Both the position numbers and the translations under genes were made by a program. A DNA stretch of 33,462 bases from Candidatus Rokuibacteriota bacterium (GTDB taxonomy: Bacteria > Methylomirabilota > Methylomirabilia > Rokubacteriales > CSP1-6): contig JAUSJX010000138.1 in assembly GCA_030647435.1 (NCBI GenBank), positions 1-33,462 on the forward strand, in the 5' to 3' direction. A model generated the notes under the pieces. It searched no databases, had not been told where the DNA came from, and saw only the letters and a list, made by a program, of their open reading frames with translations. This document shows positions 11,889 through 33,462 of the stretch, piece by piece; positions within the stretch are counted from its first letter, which is position 1; every line of letters begins with the position of its first letter.

Positions 11889-14202
11889 TCATTTCTTCCT
11901 GCCTTTGCTGAAGCTCGCCGTCACGGACATCGCCGTATTCAGCGTCACGGTACACGTGCTGGTGCCACTGCAGCCCCCGCCGCTCCAACCGTTGAAGTGG
12001 GTGCCACGCCCGCGCACCGCCGTCATGGTCACGACTGAGCCGCTCGCGTCGCTTGCCGAAAAAGTCGAGTCGCAGTTCTGATCCCTCCCGGGCTGCTGCT
12101 GACACTGCCCGGCCCCTGCTTGCTCACTTTGAAAGTATACGTGGGTAACGCGGCAAAGGTTGCAGTCACGGTCAACAACCCGTTACCGGCCAGGGTACAC
12201 GGGTCGGTGCTGCTGCAGGCGCCACTGGACCAGCCGCTGAAAGTCGATCCAGACGCGGGAGTGGCTGCAAGGGTGGCCGCCGTGCCCGCTGGGTAGGTGT
12301 AGGAGCAGGCTGTGCCACAGTTGATGCCGGCAGAGCTATTTCCTACGGTCTCGGCTGCGGTGCCGACCTTGGCTGCCGTGAGGGTGGATCCTCCGGAAGG
12401 GCTGCCGCAGGCCAGATTGGAAAAGCTCGAAGTCCCGGCACTGTTGACTGCCGCCACCTGGTAGCAATAGGTCGTTCCCACGGATGCGGTGGCGTCGGTG
12501 TACGATACGGCTCCGATCGGGGTCTGCGCGATCTGCGTATACGTTCCGGTAGTGCCCACCGCTCTCTGGATGATGAAACTCGCCTGGCCACCAGAATTGT
12601 CGACCCAACTCAGAGCGAGTTGCGCCGTTGTGGCTACTGAAGGCCCGACAATCGTCACCGCCGTCGCCGTCGAGCCGTCCGCAAAGGTTGCCGTCAGCGT
12701 CAGCGTCCGGCCCGGCAGGAACTCGGCGGCCTGATAATCCGAGGCGAACAGGACGAAGCTCCCCCCGTCGGCCACCGGGAAGTTCACCGCCATCGTCCCC
12801 GGCGCGTTCAGCACCGCCCCGTCCAGCGTCGGCGCCACCGCCAACACCCAGTACCCGCTCCCGCTGCTCGTGTCCCAGGTCCCCGGCGCGTTGCTGTCCA
12901 GCCGAAGGCCCGTCACCCTCCGTCCCCCGGGCGCGCTCAGAGTCGCCGTCAGCGTGCCGTCCAGCGCCCCGTCCGCGCCTAGCGCCGTATTGCCCTGCCC
13001 CACCCGATCTCGCAGCTTGCCATTATAGGCCAGCGTCAGCTTCGCAGGCGCCGCGCTCACCACCGTGAATCCTCCGGGAAGCGTCGCAGTGCTGCCGCTC
13101 GAGCTCGTCACCGTCACGTTCCGCGCTCCCAGCGTCGTCCCGCTGCTGATCGTCAGCGTTGCCGTCAGCTGCGTCGCGGACACCATCGCCACATTACTGA
13201 CCGTGACGCCCACTCCGCTGACGCTCACCGTCACGCCTGCGGCGAATCCGGATCCATTGATCGTCACCGGCACCGTCGCGCCCGCCGCGCCCTGCGTCGG
13301 GGCCACGGAGCTGACCGTCATGGGCGCAACCACCGTGAAGCCCCCGGTCAGCGTGCCACCGACACCGCCCGTGTTCGCCACCGTCACGCTGCGGGTTCCC
13401 AGCGCTGTTCCGCTGGCGATCGTCAGCGTCGCCGTCAGCTGCGTCGCCGACTTCACCGTCACGTTGCTCGACGTGACGCCGGTCCCGCTGACGCTCACCG
13501 TCACGCCTGTGGCGAATCCGGATCCATTGATCGTCACTGGCACCGTCGCGCCCACCGCGCCCTGATTCGGCGTGACGGACGTGACTGTCGGTGCAGGCGG
13601 CGCTGTCGCAAACGTCGCCGTCGTGGTGACTGACCCGTTTCCGACCAGCGTACACGGAGCAGTCCCGCTGCAGCCGCCGCCTGACCAGCTGCTGAAAGTC
13701 GATCCGGAAGAGGGAGTGACCGTCAAGGTGACGACCTTCCCAGCTGGGTAGGTGTAGGAACAGGTCGCCCCGCAGGTGATTCCGGCAGGGCTGCTTGCTA
13801 CGGTCCCCACTCCGGTACCGGCCTTGGCCGTCGTCAGCGTGAATCCACCGGATGGGCGCCGCAGGCGAGGTTGGAAAAGGCGGACTCCCCGTCACTATTG
13901 ACTGCAGCCACTTGGTAGCAGTAGGTCGTTCCTAACGAGACCGCCGTGTCGGCGTACGATACGACTCCGACGGGGAGCTGGCCGATCTGGGTATACGGCC
14001 CGCCAGTGCCCGTCGCTCTCTGGATGATGAAACCTGCCTGGCCGCCCGAGTTGTCGACCCAACTCAGATTGAGTTGCTGCGCCGTGGCTACTGCAGGCCC
14101 CACAACGAGGCTGAGGCTGACCAGAGCGAACAGGAGGATCGGGCGCGATTGCCTGACCCAGAGCGGGCCGAGCGTGTGAAGGACATGCGGTGCTCGGAAC
14201 AC
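11889..14202 (-). pseudogene. Large secreted FN3 / InlB-repeat / IPT protein with two frameshifts
   Basis: The GTG start at 14202 is chosen because AGGGGGG lies seven bases upstream. A signal peptide (ILLFALVSLSLVVGPAVATA) is followed by an FN3-like domain (LSWVDNSGGQAGFIIQRATG to SAFSNLACG). A one-base deletion near 13856 shifts the frame. The next text is an InlB-type repeat (GTVASSPAGITCGATCSYTY), then two IPT/TIG domains (VTSVTPNQGAVGATVPVTIN and a near copy) and a ~130-residue beta domain (LTLAYNGKLRDRVGQGNTAL). A second FN3 and two more InlB-type repeats follow. A two-base insertion near 12078 shifts the frame again; the continuation (CDSTFSASDASGSVV, FNGWSGGGCSG) ends at TGA 11891-11889. 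Corrected, it has about 770 residues: a surface or matrix protein, perhaps an adhesin. The frameshifts may be real, phase-variable or assembly errors. Confidence 0.75.
13085..13570 (-). repeat. Tandem IPT/TIG domain-encoding repeats
   Basis: Two adjacent units of about 245 bases encode nearly the same IPT/TIG immunoglobulin-like domain, with shared stretches such as GATVPVTINGSGFA, GVTVSVSG and ATQLTATLTI. The DNA itself is highly similar, pointing to recent duplication inside the gene. Confidence 0.75.
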
Positions 14203-14261: not shown

Positions 14262-14338
14262 CTTCGGCAGCCCGGCCATCAGGCCCATCGCCTGATCCGT
14301 GGCTTTGCGTCCTCACCTCACGGTGAGTTTGCCCTTAT
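14262..14338 (-). promoter_or_regulatory. c-di-GMP-I (GEMM-I) riboswitch
   Basis: On the minus strand the leader reads GGGCAAAC (14334-14327), a short hairpin with GTGA loop flanked by CTCACC and GGTGAG, then GGACGCAAAGCC (14312-14301), ACGGATC, a second hairpin (CAGGC..GCCTG), and ATGGCCGGGCTGCC (to 14266). These are the conserved blocks of the GEMM-I aptamer in order: P1 5' strand, tetraloop hairpin, GACGCAAAGCCA core, receptor hairpin and closing GGxTGCC. It ends about 60 bases before the GTG of the FN3/IPT gene. It should sense cyclic di-GMP and control that gene and the beta-helix gene downstream; whether ligand turns expression on or off cannot be read with confidence. Confidence 0.88.
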
Positions 14339-14507
14339 CGGGAAGAGGTCTCCGCGCTGAGATCTCTCTATGCGAGAATCGCGCCCGAGCTTCAGCGGGT
14401 GAGGTTTCCCGCTCGTTAGGTGCAAAAAAAACAGGTAGTTATCGCGGAGCCGGACAAGACGCCCGCCCGGCGAAAATTCTCTGAAATCAGTCATTGGGCC
14501 GCCACAT

Positions 14508-24118: not shown

Positions 24119-24760
24119 TCAGTCGGGCAGGTAGTCGCCCAGGACCGGATACATCGCCTGAACGTACGCGACGAGGCGCTCGGAGGTCTCCCGGGCGCTT
24201 CCGTAGACTGGGCTCATGACCCTCACGATCGCTCCGTCGGTGCGGTTGCGGACGAGGGCGCTCTTGACCATCGCGATCCGCGCGGGCACCTCCCCCGCGA
24301 TCACCTGCCCCTGGGACTGATACCAGTACAGGACGACCTGTTGGTCCCGATCCTTCTGGATCAGGTACCGGTTCACGATGATGGGCGGATGGGGAGGAGG
24401 GAGAGGGATCGTGACGAACGAGGACTCGACTGGCTCCCACCCGGCCCCGGGGAGGCAGTTCTTCGGCGAGTGAATCACCGCGCCCTTCCGCTGCGTGTCC
24501 CAGTAGCCGATGTAGAGGTTCAAACTTCGACCGCGTTCATCGCCGTAGTCGCGCATCACGTAGTCCGTGAGCTTCAGCTTGTCCAGGATACCCACACTGA
24601 AGATCGTCCCCCTGCGCGCCTGCCACTCCCCCAGCGTCGCCGGAAAGGAGTCGAGCGGCTTCCGGATCGGCACGGCCTCCCCTGTGGACCGCAGCTGCAG
24701 GACCAGCAGCGCGCCGAGGAGGATCGCCAGCGACACCGACACTCGAGCCGCCTGCCTCAT
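24119..24760 (-). CDS. epsI: EpsI family protein (exosortase-associated)
   Basis: 213 residues. ATG at 24760 overlaps the exosortase stop by four bases (ATGA), so the two are translationally coupled. An N-terminal membrane anchor (VSLAILLGALLVLQL) is followed by the EpsI domain: PLDSFPATLGEWQARRG, a LYIGYWDTQRKG strand, HSPKNCLPGAGWEP at 97-110 (the family's H-x-P-x-x-C-L-P-G-x-G-W box), VVLYWYQSQGQVI and a C-terminal helix with LVAYVQAMYPVLGDYLPD. EpsI proteins always travel with, or are fused to, exosortases; the Cys/His box suggests a catalytic or thiol role in the same membrane complex, not yet proven. A 25-codon copy of its C-terminus survives at 27871. Confidence 0.92.
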   Translation of the reverse strand: MRQAARVSVSLAILLGALLVLQLRSTGEAVPIRKPLDSFPATLGEWQARRGTIFSVGILDKLKLTDYVMRDYGDERGRSLNLYIGYWDTQRKGAVIHSPKNCLPGAGWEPVESSFVTIPLPPPHPPIIVNRYLIQKDRDQQVVLYWYQSQGQVIAGEVPARIAMVKSALVRNRTDGAIVRVMSPVYGSARETSERLVAYVQAMYPVLGDYLPD

Positions 24761-25659
24761 GCGGTGTCCCAGACCCGGCGCGGGCTCACTGCTCGGAGAA
24801 CGCCGTGGACCGCGAGCAGACAGAGGATGGCGACGATAAAGACCAGCCAGCCGGAGAAGAAGTGGAAGAATCCCTCGGCATACTCGACACCGAACGACCG
24901 GCCGACGAGACCGGTCATCACGATGCGGCCGGCGTTGGTCACGATCGTGATGGGCAGGACCGAGATCACGAGCACGACCTGCATCCAGAACCTCGGCAGC
25001 ATGAGGTGCGCCCAGGCAACGCCGAGAGCCACCAGGGTGATCAGCGATCGGATGCCGCTGCAGGCCTCCGTGACACCGAGCGTGAGGTTGCTCAGGTGGA
25101 TAACGTTCCCGTCGAGGAGGACCGGCACGCCGAGGAGATCCAAGGCCCAGGCTCCGTTCTCGGCGGCCAGGTTCTGGAGCCGCGCCGTCATGGCGTAGAA
25201 GAAGATCGCCGGCATGGGCACCAGGAACAGGAAGAAGCCCAGCGGGAACGCGAGCGCCCGGAGCATCGCCCAGCCGAAGTGAAACAGGACCAGCCCGGCA
25301 AGAATAACGATGAGCGAGCTTCGCATCAGGAAGGTCTCGGCGCCGATGTCGCCCACGATGAGCGCGGCCACGCCTGCCAGGATGAGCGGCACCCCGCGCC
25401 AACTGCCCCGGATCGGGAGTGTTGCCAGGTGCCGCCGGCGCTGCCACATGACGAAGCCGCTGATGATCGGAACGATGTACACGTGGCTGTAGGTGGGATC
25501 GTCCCAGAGATCTGCCAGCCAGACGGGAAGAACGCGCGCGTAGAGCCCGATCAGGATTGCGACGACCGCCCCCGCGAGCACGCCGGCCCGGAGCCGACCA
25601 TGAGCTCGTTCGCGCTGCTCCTGCTCGAGCGCTGGAAGGTTTTTCGTCAGCGTCGGCAT
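24757..25659 (-). CDS. xrtA: Exosortase (EpsH/XrtA-type transpeptidase)
   Basis: 300 residues with about eight membrane helices. The catalytic residues expected for exosortases are present: Cys200 in TEACSGIRSL, Arg245 in TNAGRIVMTG and His266 in FFHFFSGW. The N-terminal WLADLWDDPTYSHVYIVPII box is also typical. Exosortases recognise the C-terminal PEP motif of secreted proteins and cleave it at the outer face of the inner membrane. Two substrates with PEP signals flank the locus (23157 and 28050). The gene starts 19 bases after the TPR lipoprotein stop, indicating one operon (prsT-like, exosortase, epsI). The subtype (XrtA versus others) is a guess from the company it keeps. Confidence 0.92.
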   Translation of the reverse strand: MPTLTKNLPALEQEQRERAHGRLRAGVLAGAVVAILIGLYARVLPVWLADLWDDPTYSHVYIVPIISGFVMWQRRRHLATLPIRGSWRGVPLILAGVAALIVGDIGAETFLMRSSLIVILAGLVLFHFGWAMLRALAFPLGFFLFLVPMPAIFFYAMTARLQNLAAENGAWALDLLGVPVLLDGNVIHLSNLTLGVTEACSGIRSLITLVALGVAWAHLMLPRFWMQVVLVISVLPITIVTNAGRIVMTGLVGRSFGVEYAEGFFHFFSGWLVFIVAILCLLAVHGVLRAVSPRRVWDTA

Positions 25660-25678
25660 TTTAGCAACCGTGACGTCA

Positions 25679-27853
25679 CTATTTGAGCTCCGCCAAGGCC
25701 TTTTTCGCCTCGTCCTTCCCGGCGAAGCTCGCCGGCGAGTTCACGGCCGCGGTCAAGGCCGTGCGGGCGCCATCCTTGTCTCCGACCTTCAGGGACGCTA
25801 ACCCGAGATGGTACTGGACAACCGGCTGGTCCGGAAGCTTGCTCGCGCTCTCTTTCAACAAGGCAACCGCTCGCTGGTATACGCCGCGCTTGTAGAGGAT
25901 CCATCCCAGGGTGTCCGAGACATTCGGGTCTTCGGGAGCCATTTCCTTGGCCGTTTGAGCCAGTTGGAGCGCCTTTTCCTTGTCGCCGCCGTGTTCGGAG
26001 TAAAGCCAGGCCAGGTTGTTCGCCGCGAGCGCGGAGCGGGGATTGAGCGTGAGGACCTTTTCATATACTTGCTGGGCCTTCGCGACCTCTCCCTTGCGCT
26101 CGTAGAGAATGCCCATGAGCATCTGCGGGGGGAGCGCGCTGGGGTTCGTCTTGAGCGCTTCGTTCATCTTGGCTAGCGCCTCATCGTAACGGCCAGAGGC
26201 CTGGTAGAGGTCGCCAAGCCGCACATAGGCGTCGATCCGCGTCGGCTCGAGCTCGATAGCCTTCAGAAACGCGCCTTCGGCGAGCCTAGGCTCGCGCCGA
26301 GCGAGGTGCACAATGCCGAGCAGGTGCTGGAGCCCTCCGGACGTGGGCACCAGGGCGATCTGCTTCGTGACGCGGCTGAGGGCGGTGTCGGGCTGCTTTG
26401 CGGCGAGGGCCATGCTGGCAAGCTGGGCAGCCGGCTCGACATAGCCGGGAGCCAAGGCGAGGGCGGCTTCGAATTCTTTCTTCGCCTCCGCGCTCTTTCC
26501 CTGCGCCCTGAGTCCGACACCCACCAGATAGAACCCCCGGGGGTCCTTTGGGCCGAGGACCTGGAGCTTGCGGAACGCCTCGGTCGCCCGGGCCGGCTCA
26601 CGCTTGGCTAGATAGGCCAGGCCGAGGAGGCGGTGGGCCGGGAACACTCTCGGCTGCCGGGCCAGGAAGCTCTCCAGGTCCTCGATGGCGGGTTGAAACG
26701 CGCCCGCTTGGATGTTCAGCTCGGCCAGCAGAAGCACGGCCTCGGTGAAGTTGGGGGCGGCCGATATCGCGTCCTTCAGTTCGGCCTTGGCCTGCTGAAG
26801 ATTCCCGGCCTGGACCTGGGCCAGCCCGAGCTGGTAGCGCGCCATGGCGTTCCTCGGGTCGAGCTTCAGCACCTGTTGGAATTCCTGGATCGCCTCGGTG
26901 TTCTCGCGCTTGGTCAGGCGCACGCGCCCTAGCAGGAGATGACCCTCTAGGTCTGATGGGTTCTTCTTGAGCAGAGCCTGCAAGGCCCTGAGGCTCTCGT
27001 CGTACTTGCGCTCCTGGAACAAGATCTCGGCCAGCCGCCGCCACGCGGGGAGATACGCCGGGGCCTTCTGGGTGATCTCCGACAGGATGCGCTTGGTATC
27101 ATCAGGCTTTTGCGCGAGGAGGTAGAAGTCGGCGAGCCGCATCCGCGCCACCGAGCCGACCGGCGCGATGTCAGCCGCCGCCTTGAACTCTCGCTCAGCC
27201 TGAGTGGCATCCCGCTTGCCGAGGTAGAGTTCGCCCAGCGCCAGATGGGCCTCGGCGAACTTGGGATCGCGGGCCACGGCCTCCTGGAAGGCACGCTCCG
27301 CGCTCACCGCGTCCTGCTTCCGAAGGTAGAGGACGCCGAGCGCCAGATGCAGCTTCGCCCGATCCCCCAGATCGGCTTGGGCCGTCTCGAGCCGTCGGAT
27401 CGCGGCGTCTACCTCCTCGGGCGTGGCGGCCATGCTGGCCAGCAGCACGAGCCCGTCGAGGTTCTTGGGCTCTTTCTCGAGGACAAAGGTGACCTCCCGC
27501 CTGGCCTCGTCCGTCTCGCCCGCGCGGAAATAGATCGTCCCGAGCTTGAGCCGGACGTCGGGGGCATCGGGGGCCAGCTCCTCGGCTTTCAGGAGATAAC
27601 GAAACGCCTGCGCCAGCTCCCCAAGCTGGTAGTGCGAGACGCCAAGTTGCCTAATGGCGCGCTCATTGGCGGGGTCGAACCGGAGCACGTTCCGGTACTC
27701 GAGGATCGCCTCCCGGTACTGCTCTCGCGCGGCGTACTTGTCGCCGCGCTCCAGATGGCGAGTCTTCTGAGCCTCCGGGGACCGAGAGCAGCCGGCCACG
27801 ACCAGCAGTCCGACGACCAGGAGAATGGTCCACCTGCGGGTCCTGCGAGACAT
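25679..27853 (-). CDS. prsT: PrsT-like TPR-repeat lipoprotein of the PEP-CTERM system
   Basis: 724 residues, ATG 27853. A lipoprotein signal peptide (ILLVVGLLVVAGC, lipidated Cys22) is followed by about 18 TPR units from residue 35 to the end, for example KYAAREQYREAILEYRNVLR, YLRKQDAVSAERAFQEAVAR and DPRNAMARYQLGLAQVQAGN. This matches the giant TPR lipoprotein (PrsT, TIGR02917) that accompanies exosortases in biofilm/EPS clusters, though it is shorter than the ~900 residues usual for that family. It is probably anchored in the outer or inner membrane and acts as an assembly scaffold for polysaccharide export or protein sorting. It is the first gene of the prsT-xrt-epsI run. Confidence 0.85.
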   Translation of the reverse strand: MSRRTRRWTILLVVGLLVVAGCSRSPEAQKTRHLERGDKYAAREQYREAILEYRNVLRFDPANERAIRQLGVSHYQLGELAQAFRYLLKAEELAPDAPDVRLKLGTIYFRAGETDEARREVTFVLEKEPKNLDGLVLLASMAATPEEVDAAIRRLETAQADLGDRAKLHLALGVLYLRKQDAVSAERAFQEAVARDPKFAEAHLALGELYLGKRDATQAEREFKAAADIAPVGSVARMRLADFYLLAQKPDDTKRILSEITQKAPAYLPAWRRLAEILFQERKYDESLRALQALLKKNPSDLEGHLLLGRVRLTKRENTEAIQEFQQVLKLDPRNAMARYQLGLAQVQAGNLQQAKAELKDAISAAPNFTEAVLLLAELNIQAGAFQPAIEDLESFLARQPRVFPAHRLLGLAYLAKREPARATEAFRKLQVLGPKDPRGFYLVGVGLRAQGKSAEAKKEFEAALALAPGYVEPAAQLASMALAAKQPDTALSRVTKQIALVPTSGGLQHLLGIVHLARREPRLAEGAFLKAIELEPTRIDAYVRLGDLYQASGRYDEALAKMNEALKTNPSALPPQMLMGILYERKGEVAKAQQVYEKVLTLNPRSALAANNLAWLYSEHGGDKEKALQLAQTAKEMAPEDPNVSDTLGWILYKRGVYQRAVALLKESASKLPDQPVVQYHLGLASLKVGDKDGARTALTAAVNSPASFAGKDEAKKALAELK

Positions 27854-30000: not shown

Positions 30001-31232
30001 ATGGCCAATTCATCGAAACGAAAGCGGCGGCTGTGGGATGCATACGCGTGGCCTGGTTTCTGGCCGCACTCTACGGTGCGCGGAATCTTCGTTGATCCGA
30101 AGGCGCGCGTCATCACCCTCAAACGGCGCTCAAAAAAACGACGTGCGGCAGTTGCGGTCGAGGACACAGCGGATGGTACGACCGACGCACGCGGCTGGTT
30201 CGCGATCTCTCGTGTGGCGACAGGCGCATCTTTCTGGAGATCGAGGTCCGTCGTGTGCCGTGCAAGCGTTGCGGGCACGTGAAGCGCGAGCGGCTCGACT
30301 TCCTGGCGGACAATCCCTTCTATACCAAGCGCTTTGCCTATTACGTGGGCCGGCGCTGCCGCTCGGCAACGATCAAGAGCATTGCACAGGAGTTGCACCT
30401 CGACTGGGAGACGATCAAGACGCTGGAGATGCAGTACATGCGGGCGCAACTCGCCCGTGTGGGTGCGCCAGGACCCACAGCCACCGGCATCGACGAGATC
30501 TCGATCCGCAAGGGCCATACCTACCGCATCGTGGTGAGCGACCTGATTCGACGGCGCCCGATCTGGTTCGGGGGAGCGGACCGCAAAGAGGCGAGCATGG
30601 CGCTGTTCTACGACTGGCTCGGTGAGAAGAAGACCCGGGGCATTCGCTTGGCGGTGATGGACATGTGGAAGCCGTTTCACACCGTGACGGTGGCGCGTGC
30701 ACCGCAGGCGGCGATCCTGTACGACAAGTTCCACATCATGCGCCACCTCGGAGAAGCGCTCGACACGGTCCGCAAGACCGAGTACGCGCGGCTCTCGGGG
30801 CGCGGTCGGCGCTTCATCAAGGGCCAGAAGTACACACTGCTCTCGCGTCGGGAAAACCTCACCCTGGAGGGCAGGAAGTCGCTCAAGACGTTGCTGGCGG
30901 CCAACAAGCGCTTGAATACGGCATACTTGCTCAAGGAATCCTTCGGGCAGCTCTGGGACTACGAGCGCGAGGGTTGGGCACGCAGATTCTTCGAGAACTG
31001 GCGGGCGAGCCTGAAGTGGCAGCGACTCGCGCCGTACGAGAAGTTCGCCGAGATGATCGATCGACATTGGGATGGGATCGCCGCCTATTGCGAGCCCGAG
31101 AACAAGGTCTCGCTCGGATTCGTCGAGGGCTTGAACAACAAGATCCGGGTCATCCAGCGCCGCGCGTACGGACTGCGCGACGAGGAGTATCTGCGGTTGA
31201 AGGTGCTCACGTGTATGCTGCCAGCGCTCTAA
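30001..31232 (+). CDS. tnp: ISL3-family transposase, frames 1 and 0 joined at an A7 run
   Basis: The upstream frame (ATG 30001, or 29965) reads KRRLWDAYAWPGFWPHSTVR, GIFVDPKARVITLKRRSKK and reaches seven A residues at 30132-30138. In the -1 frame the text continues TTCGSCGRGHSGWYDRRTRL then VRRVPCKRCG, a zf-ISL3 zinc finger with two CxxC pairs. The DDE catalytic domain follows: GIDEISIRKGH (first Asp), LAVMDMWKPF (second Asp) and GFVEGLNNKIRVIQRRAYG (Glu), ending at 31232. The joined product has about 410 residues, normal for the family. Without the shift, translation could only start at GTG 30255 and would lose the zinc finger. Thus A-AAA-AAA-C looks like a programmed -1 slippage site; a simple mutation is the alternative. 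Confidence 0.88.
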
Positions 31233-32582: not shown

Positions 32583-32704
32583 GCGTCACCAGAGATGAGA
32601 TCGACGCCCTGGACACGTCCATCATTCTCTATCGCTTGAGCCTCAGCTCTCGATGGCAGCCACCTTGCGCGAATCTCGTGTAAGCGTGTAGGATGGGAAC
32701 CTGA

Positions 32705-32790
32705 CAACGGCAACCCCCCCCCTAAAGGGTGGGACGCAAAACCACTGGCCTAAGTCCCGGCGTCCCGGGATACGGTAGCAGGGTTGCCGG
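32705..32790 (+). promoter_or_regulatory. c-di-GMP-I (GEMM-I) riboswitch
   Basis: P1 is CGGCAACCC (32708-32716) paired with GGGTTGCCG (32781-32789). Inside are a C-run/TAAAGGGTGGG hairpin, the core GGGACGCAAAACCACTGGCC (32731-32750), CTAAG, a strong hairpin TCCCGG-CGT-CCCGGGA (32755-32770) and TACGGTAGCAGGG. This order and the GGGACGCAAA, GGCCTAA and GGTAGC-GGGTTGCC blocks follow the V. cholerae Vc2 aptamer. A short hairpin (CACAG 32796-32800 with CTGTG 32814-32818) and a G-rich ribosome site follow, so control could act on translation of the gene at 32851. Confidence 0.92.
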
Positions 32791-32850
32791 GCGAACACAG
32801 AGCCTCCTCGGGGCTGTGACCTCGCTCACGGCTTAGAGGGGGGGCTAGCA

Positions 32851-33462
32851 GTGAGCTCGTTCAAGAGACCGTCCCATCGCGTTGCCGTCGCTACAATGCT
32901 GCTCCTGACGATGCTCGCCTGGCACGATGAGGCCATCGCCGCCCCGCTCACCGTAACGTGGGTCAATAATGCCCCCGATGCAGCCGGGTTCTCGGTGGAG
33001 AGAAGCACGGGCGGCGCGGCGGCGTTCGCAGAAATCGCCAGGACGGGAGCCGCGGTCACCACGTACGTGGATTCCTCCGTGACCGATACGACCACCTATT
33101 GCTATCGTGTCCGGGCATTCAATCAAAACGGATACTCCGATTACTCCAACACGGCGTGTTCCGGCTCGCCGAGCAATATCACACCCCCGACGGTAAGCAT
33201 CACGGCACCCACCGGGGGCACCGTCTCGGGCAATGTCACCATCAGGGCGTCGGCGACCGATAACGTCGGCGTGACCCTGATCAAATACTCCGTGGACGGG
33301 GCCTTGATCGGCATCTTCGCGCCGCCCGTGTACTCACTGGTCTGGAACACGGCGCTGGTACCCAACGGCACGCACACGCTCACCGTGAAAGCCACCGATG
33401 CGGCAGGCAACACGGGCACAAGCGCTGCGGTGACCGTTACCGTCGCCAATCCGAGCCCCGTG
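32851..33462 (+). CDS. Secreted FN3/Ig-like protein, 5' part (runs off the right edge)
   Basis: GTG 32851 is preceded by GAGGGGGGG seven bases upstream. 204 codons are open to the window end. Residues 1-35 are a signal peptide (HRVAVATMLLLTMLAW, cleavage near IAA). Residues ~36-112 are an FN3-like domain (LTVTWVNNAPDAAGFSVERS to YCYRVRAFNQNGYSDYSNTA). Residues ~115-200 are a bacterial Ig-like domain (VSITAPTGGTVSGNVTIRAS, DNVGVTLIKYSVDGALIG, NGTHTLTVKATDAAGN). The FN3 domain resembles those of the 11889-14202 gene, which is also behind a c-di-GMP-I riboswitch. A c-di-GMP-controlled surface or matrix protein, perhaps an adhesin or carbohydrate-active enzyme, is likely; the catalytic or anchoring part lies outside the window. 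Confidence 0.85.
   Translation, partial: MSSFKRPSHRVAVATMLLLTMLAWHDEAIAAPLTVTWVNNAPDAAGFSVERSTGGAAAFAEIARTGAAVTTYVDSSVTDTTTYCYRVRAFNQNGYSDYSNTACSGSPSNITPPTVSITAPTGGTVSGNVTIRASATDNVGVTLIKYSVDGALIGIFAPPVYSLVWNTALVPNGTHTLTVKATDAAGNTGTSAAVTVTVANPSPV

Follow-up and report, generated by a model that had tools for sequence, protein, structure and literature searches.

A probable c-di-GMP-I riboswitch ahead of a gene for a putatively exported FN3-Ig protein in a Rokubacterial genome, and the association of such switches with FN3/Ig genes across the phylum

Introduction

In Geobacter sulfurreducens, a GEMM riboswitch lies upstream of the gene for the FNIII-domain protein KN400_1971 (PMC13194489), and the papers through which we cite the work report that Geobacter also has cGAMP-sensing GEMM-I switches (Kellenberger 2015, via PMC7266159 and PMC13194489). 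In Bacillus thuringiensis, the c-di-GMP-I riboswitch Bc2 is that of cbpA (also named cap; PMC4933901, PMC7423583), and in Clostridioides difficile the adhesin CD2831, a sortase substrate, is under a c-di-GMP riboswitch (PMC6447587, PMC6200980). Our search of the literature returned nothing that joins riboswitches and Rokubacteria.

Here we analyze two c-di-GMP-I aptamers, RS1 and RS2, in a Rokubacterial window, by which we mean the whole stretch of DNA studied, 33,462 bp in length. Our main subject is RS2, which stands close to the right end of the window, and the gene that follows it. An earlier note, made from the DNA letters, had proposed that both switches precede genes for FN3-bearing exported proteins and that they belong to a c-di-GMP regulon for matrix proteins.

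Results

The RS2 aptamer and its leader

A covariance search with the Rfam model RF01051 placed RS2 at 63.3 bits, above the gathering score of 35, and a whole-genome scan recovered it again, in agreement with the proposal of a c-di-GMP-I aptamer (Table 1). The GTG start codon at 32851 lies 59 nt 3' of the aptamer, so the proposed arrangement, an aptamer about 60 bases before a GTG frame of 204 codons, was also found; start codons in relatives are mostly 50-70 nt past the aptamer. The description of the aptamer as near-consensus, however, did not hold. RS2 is among the lower scorers of 91 aptamers in relatives, most of which reach 65-83 bits, and its P2 loop has a run of nine C residues and UAAA where the closest relative has GAAA. 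Our reading of the alignment is that the P2 loop is CCTAAA after the C run, while the P3 receptor-like CCTAAG..ATACGG is retained. G20, A47 and C92, as counted in the aptamer alignment, are all retained in RS2; we take them to be the c-di-GMP ligand residues, from their roles in the Vc2 aptamer. Judged by its sequence, with the C9 run, the changed P2 loop and a score of 63 bits, RS2 is atypical and could bind ligand more weakly.

The RS2 leader, aptamer and platform together, has a single relative among 57 family genomes, in genome G042, which is 83% identical and likewise stands before an FN3 protein. Within the window, C runs are longest in the RS2 leader (C9, 32714-32722), and so are G runs (G7, 32838-32844), which makes indel errors possible at both.

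Table 1. Positions of the two switches, their target genes and the exosortase genes in the window.
Feature	Position	Strand	Basis
RS1, first c-di-GMP-I aptamer	14262-14342	-	RF03167 73.5 bits; RF01051 75.1 bits
RS1 target, first piece: N-terminal hydrophobic segment and FN3	13834-14202	-	start 60 nt past aptamer
RS1 target, second piece, other frame: InlB-type repeats, TIG, second FN3	12029-13810	-	PF18998, PF01833, FN3 copy
Exosortase (EpsH family)	24757-25659	-	TIGR02602 186.5 bits, PF09721
PrsT-type TPR protein of PEP-CTERM system	25679-27853	-	TIGR02917 389 bits
RS2, c-di-GMP-I (GEMM-I) riboswitch aptamer	32699-32791	+	RF01051 63.3 bits, E 2.6e-10
Candidate anti-Shine-Dalgarno segment AGCCTCCTC	32801-32809	+	pairs with 32836-32846 in MFE fold
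Shine-Dalgarno region GAGGGGGGGCT, predicted paired	32836-32846	+	openness 0.19, 7th percentile of 156 control genes
Exported protein (RS2 target): secretion-like N-terminus, FN3 (about residues 33-105), Big_7 Ig (113-179)	32851-33462	+	Pfam, homologues, AF2, Foldseek

The protein encoded behind RS2

The frame of 204 codons runs without a stop codon to the end of the window at 33462. Because the window is a complete contig (C138), the RS2 target gene is cut by the assembly. The remainder of the protein was not found in the genome, in which there was one further, weak Ig match (contig C81). A homologue in the same-genus genome G003 goes on, past the same Ig domain, with what reads as a TIG domain, so the whole RS2 target may be an FN3-Ig-TIG protein.

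The earlier note had assigned a signal peptide, FN3 and Ig-like domains to this protein. The Ig part was confirmed by Pfam, with Big_7 (PF17957) matching at 60 bits against a cut-off of 24.1. Pfam fn3 (PF00041) gave no match at E <= 0.001 in the RS2 target gene or in the genome, and the FN3 assignment comes instead from homologues, a PDB match and the fold. The domain is 49% identical to the copy behind the G042 switch, and an FN3-like protein in the PDB matches it with an E value of 0.004. The AF2 model of the protein shows two beta-sandwiches (pLDDT 81.7 overall, about 90 over residues 33-105), and the top Foldseek match is 3pdd, the FN3-like modules of CbhA, with single-domain matches up to a TMt of 0.84. 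On the predicted structure, the domain is FN3-like in fold and falls below Pfam fn3 membership. The signal peptide was called by a crude hydrophobicity rule; the protein is presumably exported, with a likely role in matrix or adhesion.

RS1 and the architecture common to the two targets

RS1 and RS2 are about 18.4 kb apart and each precedes an FN3-bearing gene, as had been proposed. In the 5.79 Mb genome, the scan found no c-di-GMP-I aptamers other than these two. We saw three copies of the window-type FN3 domain in the genome, all of them behind RS1 or RS2; the homologue count gave a fourth, unlisted whole-query match, which is probably the Ig on C81. The FN3 domain follows directly after the N-terminal export segment in both targets, and that of the RS2 target is about 40% identical to the two copies in the RS1 gene. 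The claim that the targets share their architecture thus stands for the FN3 domain and fails after it, where the RS2 target has Ig and the RS1 target has InlB repeats and TIG. The RS1 target gene (12029-14202, minus strand) has two frame changes, near 13855 and near 12080, which indicate either a pseudogene or assembly errors.

The expression platform

We compared the switch leaders with shuffled sequences and with control genes; these tests took the place of pair counting, as the MAFFT alignment of the leaders misaligned the Shine-Dalgarno (SD) region. Over 74 leaders, the anti-SD helix score was 16.9, compared with 12.3 +/- 0.45 for shuffles, and the openness of the SD was 0.31, compared with 0.40 in control genes (P 0.0013). 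SD sequestration is thus a modest statistical signal, which favours translational control of either sign. Pairing between the 5' flank and the anti-SD, as in an ON-switch model, scored 12.9 against 11.7 +/- 0.34 for flank swaps, a signal too weak to decide the sign in favour of that model. ViennaRNA folds with P1 forbidden left long unpaired stretches, apparently from an over-wide constraint, and were excluded from the ON/OFF assessment. Known GEMM switches act either way, Cd1 as an OFF switch and pilM as an ON switch (PMC9262584), and RS2 could act in either sense.

Switches and their targets across the phylum

The 91 aptamer matches are spread over 41 of 80 relatives. The domains found in 80 frames downstream of switches were fn3 (14), response regulator (13), Big_7 (11), InlB repeat (4), CARDB (4) and others; two type IV pilins and beta-helix proteins are also among the targets in relatives. 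By the crude rule, 57 of 82 switch targets have an export-type N-terminus. FN3 is scarce, with 71 domain matches in the 80 genomes, but in switch-bearing genomes 17 of 42 matches fall in the 2.5 kb downstream of a switch, where 0.037 were expected. Of 25 switches in nine held-out genomes, 8 are followed within 3 kb by a homologue of the window protein (FN3/Ig), against an expectation of 0.031. Paralogous targets are not independent, which makes the Poisson P values too small; despite this, the excess of FN3/Ig behind switches is several hundred-fold. These data support part of the proposed regulon for matrix proteins, namely the FN3/Ig excess; response regulators, pilins, CARDB, beta-helix and other proteins are found behind switches as well, and to that extent the proposal was too narrow.

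Two genomes of a single genus have similar switches ahead of type IV pilin-like proteins (L092 and L093). Four switch-linked secreted proteins (L078, L120, L138 and L141) have a similar C-terminal segment, approximately AYQAA..LPTYTD...IKA.HL.ELR.AV..LQ, possibly an anchoring or sorting domain. The aptamers L105, L141 and L145, of which L141 precedes an FN3 protein, carry A in place of G20 and might respond to cGAMP. In eleven aptamers (L135, L137-L140, L143, L148, L152, L157, L158 and L160), C replaces the second A of GGCAAACC, and every one of them has a base other than A in GGG[A]CGC (Fisher P 1.6e-10); this combination is a covarying aptamer variant.

Discussion

We consider it highly probable that RS2, in the 5' leader of its target gene, is a c-di-GMP riboswitch of the ordinary class I kind, and that the gene encodes an exported surface or matrix protein of the FN3-Ig type; the switch probably acts on translation. 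The genome encodes three GGDEF proteins with an intact GGDEF motif. The cell's GGDEF cyclases would make c-di-GMP, a biofilm signal, and this would bind the RS2 aptamer. Alternative hairpins would arise in the roughly 59 nt past the aptamer, and in one of them the upstream anti-SD would pair with the ribosome-binding site, so that ligand binding would change translation of the exported FN3-Ig protein. What we observe is the aptamer with its c-di-GMP-type residues, the spacing to the start codon, the architecture of the target, the FN3/Ig association over the phylum and the GGDEF genes; from there we infer ligand binding, control at the level of translation, export and a part in matrix or adhesion. 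The atypical aptamer, and the lack of such switches in the four same-genus genomes, count against this reading.

The switches were also said to flank an exosortase cluster, and by position they do, the exosortase, EpsI and PrsT genes (24119-27853) lying between RS1 and RS2. An ISL3 transposase gene (30255-31232, plus strand) lies between this cluster and RS2. One could suppose that the switches belong with the cluster in function and form a regulon dedicated to exosortase-sorted matrix proteins, particularly as the genome has no switches besides the two that flank it and as, over 80 genomes, six switch-exosortase pairs are separated by 20 kb or less where 0.6 would be expected. Two of these six, however, are the window itself, the other near pairs are 8-20 kb apart, and two of them depend on weak exosortase matches (27-36 bits). 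Orthologous Xrt/PrsT clusters in G006, G009, G030 and G044, with Xrt 55-57% identical, lie on contigs that lack a switch, and the four same-genus genomes have no riboswitch of the c-di-GMP-I type; the closest Ig homologue there (79% identity) belongs to a different protein, one that no switch precedes. Because neither the orthologous clusters nor the same-genus genomes bring a switch with them, the adjacency, real in this genome, is not conserved, and the link is weak. In addition, inspection by eye of the ends of the complete FN3 targets checked, relatives included, found no obvious PEP-CTERM tag; the C-terminus of the RS2 target falls beyond the contig end. We regard a dedicated exosortase regulon as quite unlikely.

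Loss of function would account for the same atypical aptamer in another way, RS2 being a non-functional copy that was acquired with the FN3 gene and has lost switching. Its low score, its C9 run and the loss of the GAAA loop found in the G042 relative would fit such decay, as would the transposase nearby and the frame changes that interrupt the RS1 target, but RS2 retains the ligand-contact residues, the spacing to the start codon and a platform that could sequester the SD, and we think decay unlikely. That RS2 senses cGAMP, as a GEMM-Ib switch, or another dinucleotide is very improbable: G20A variants of GEMM-I recognise cGAMP (PMC6274999) and the A occurs in three of the phylum's aptamers, but both window aptamers have G20. 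We thus prefer to read RS2 as a working c-di-GMP switch of the ordinary kind.

For the phylum as a whole, c-di-GMP-I switches may be a major control over secreted FN3/Ig proteins, exerted by anti-SD translational switching and forming a matrix or adhesin regulon; this is a serious possibility that we hold tentatively. If so, a widespread second-messenger RNA sensor would be tied to one surface-protein class in this lineage, and more than 20 candidate switch-FN3/Ig pairs are now listed.

Among the described systems, CD2831 is also a surface protein under a c-di-GMP switch, and belongs to a motile-to-sessile switch; that adhesin, however, is itself a sortase substrate, whereas the tie between the RS2 target and the exosortase is one of position. 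Bc2/cbpA similarly places a cell-surface adhesion protein under a c-di-GMP switch, but the protein there is a Gram-positive collagen-binding protein, and at RS2 the platform is a candidate anti-SD hairpin. The arrangement is also like that of Geobacter KN400_1971, where a GEMM-class switch is ahead of an FN3 surface protein, although in another phylum and with another protein. The arrangement of a switch before FN3 is therefore already known from Geobacter, and it is the phylum-scale association that is worth following.
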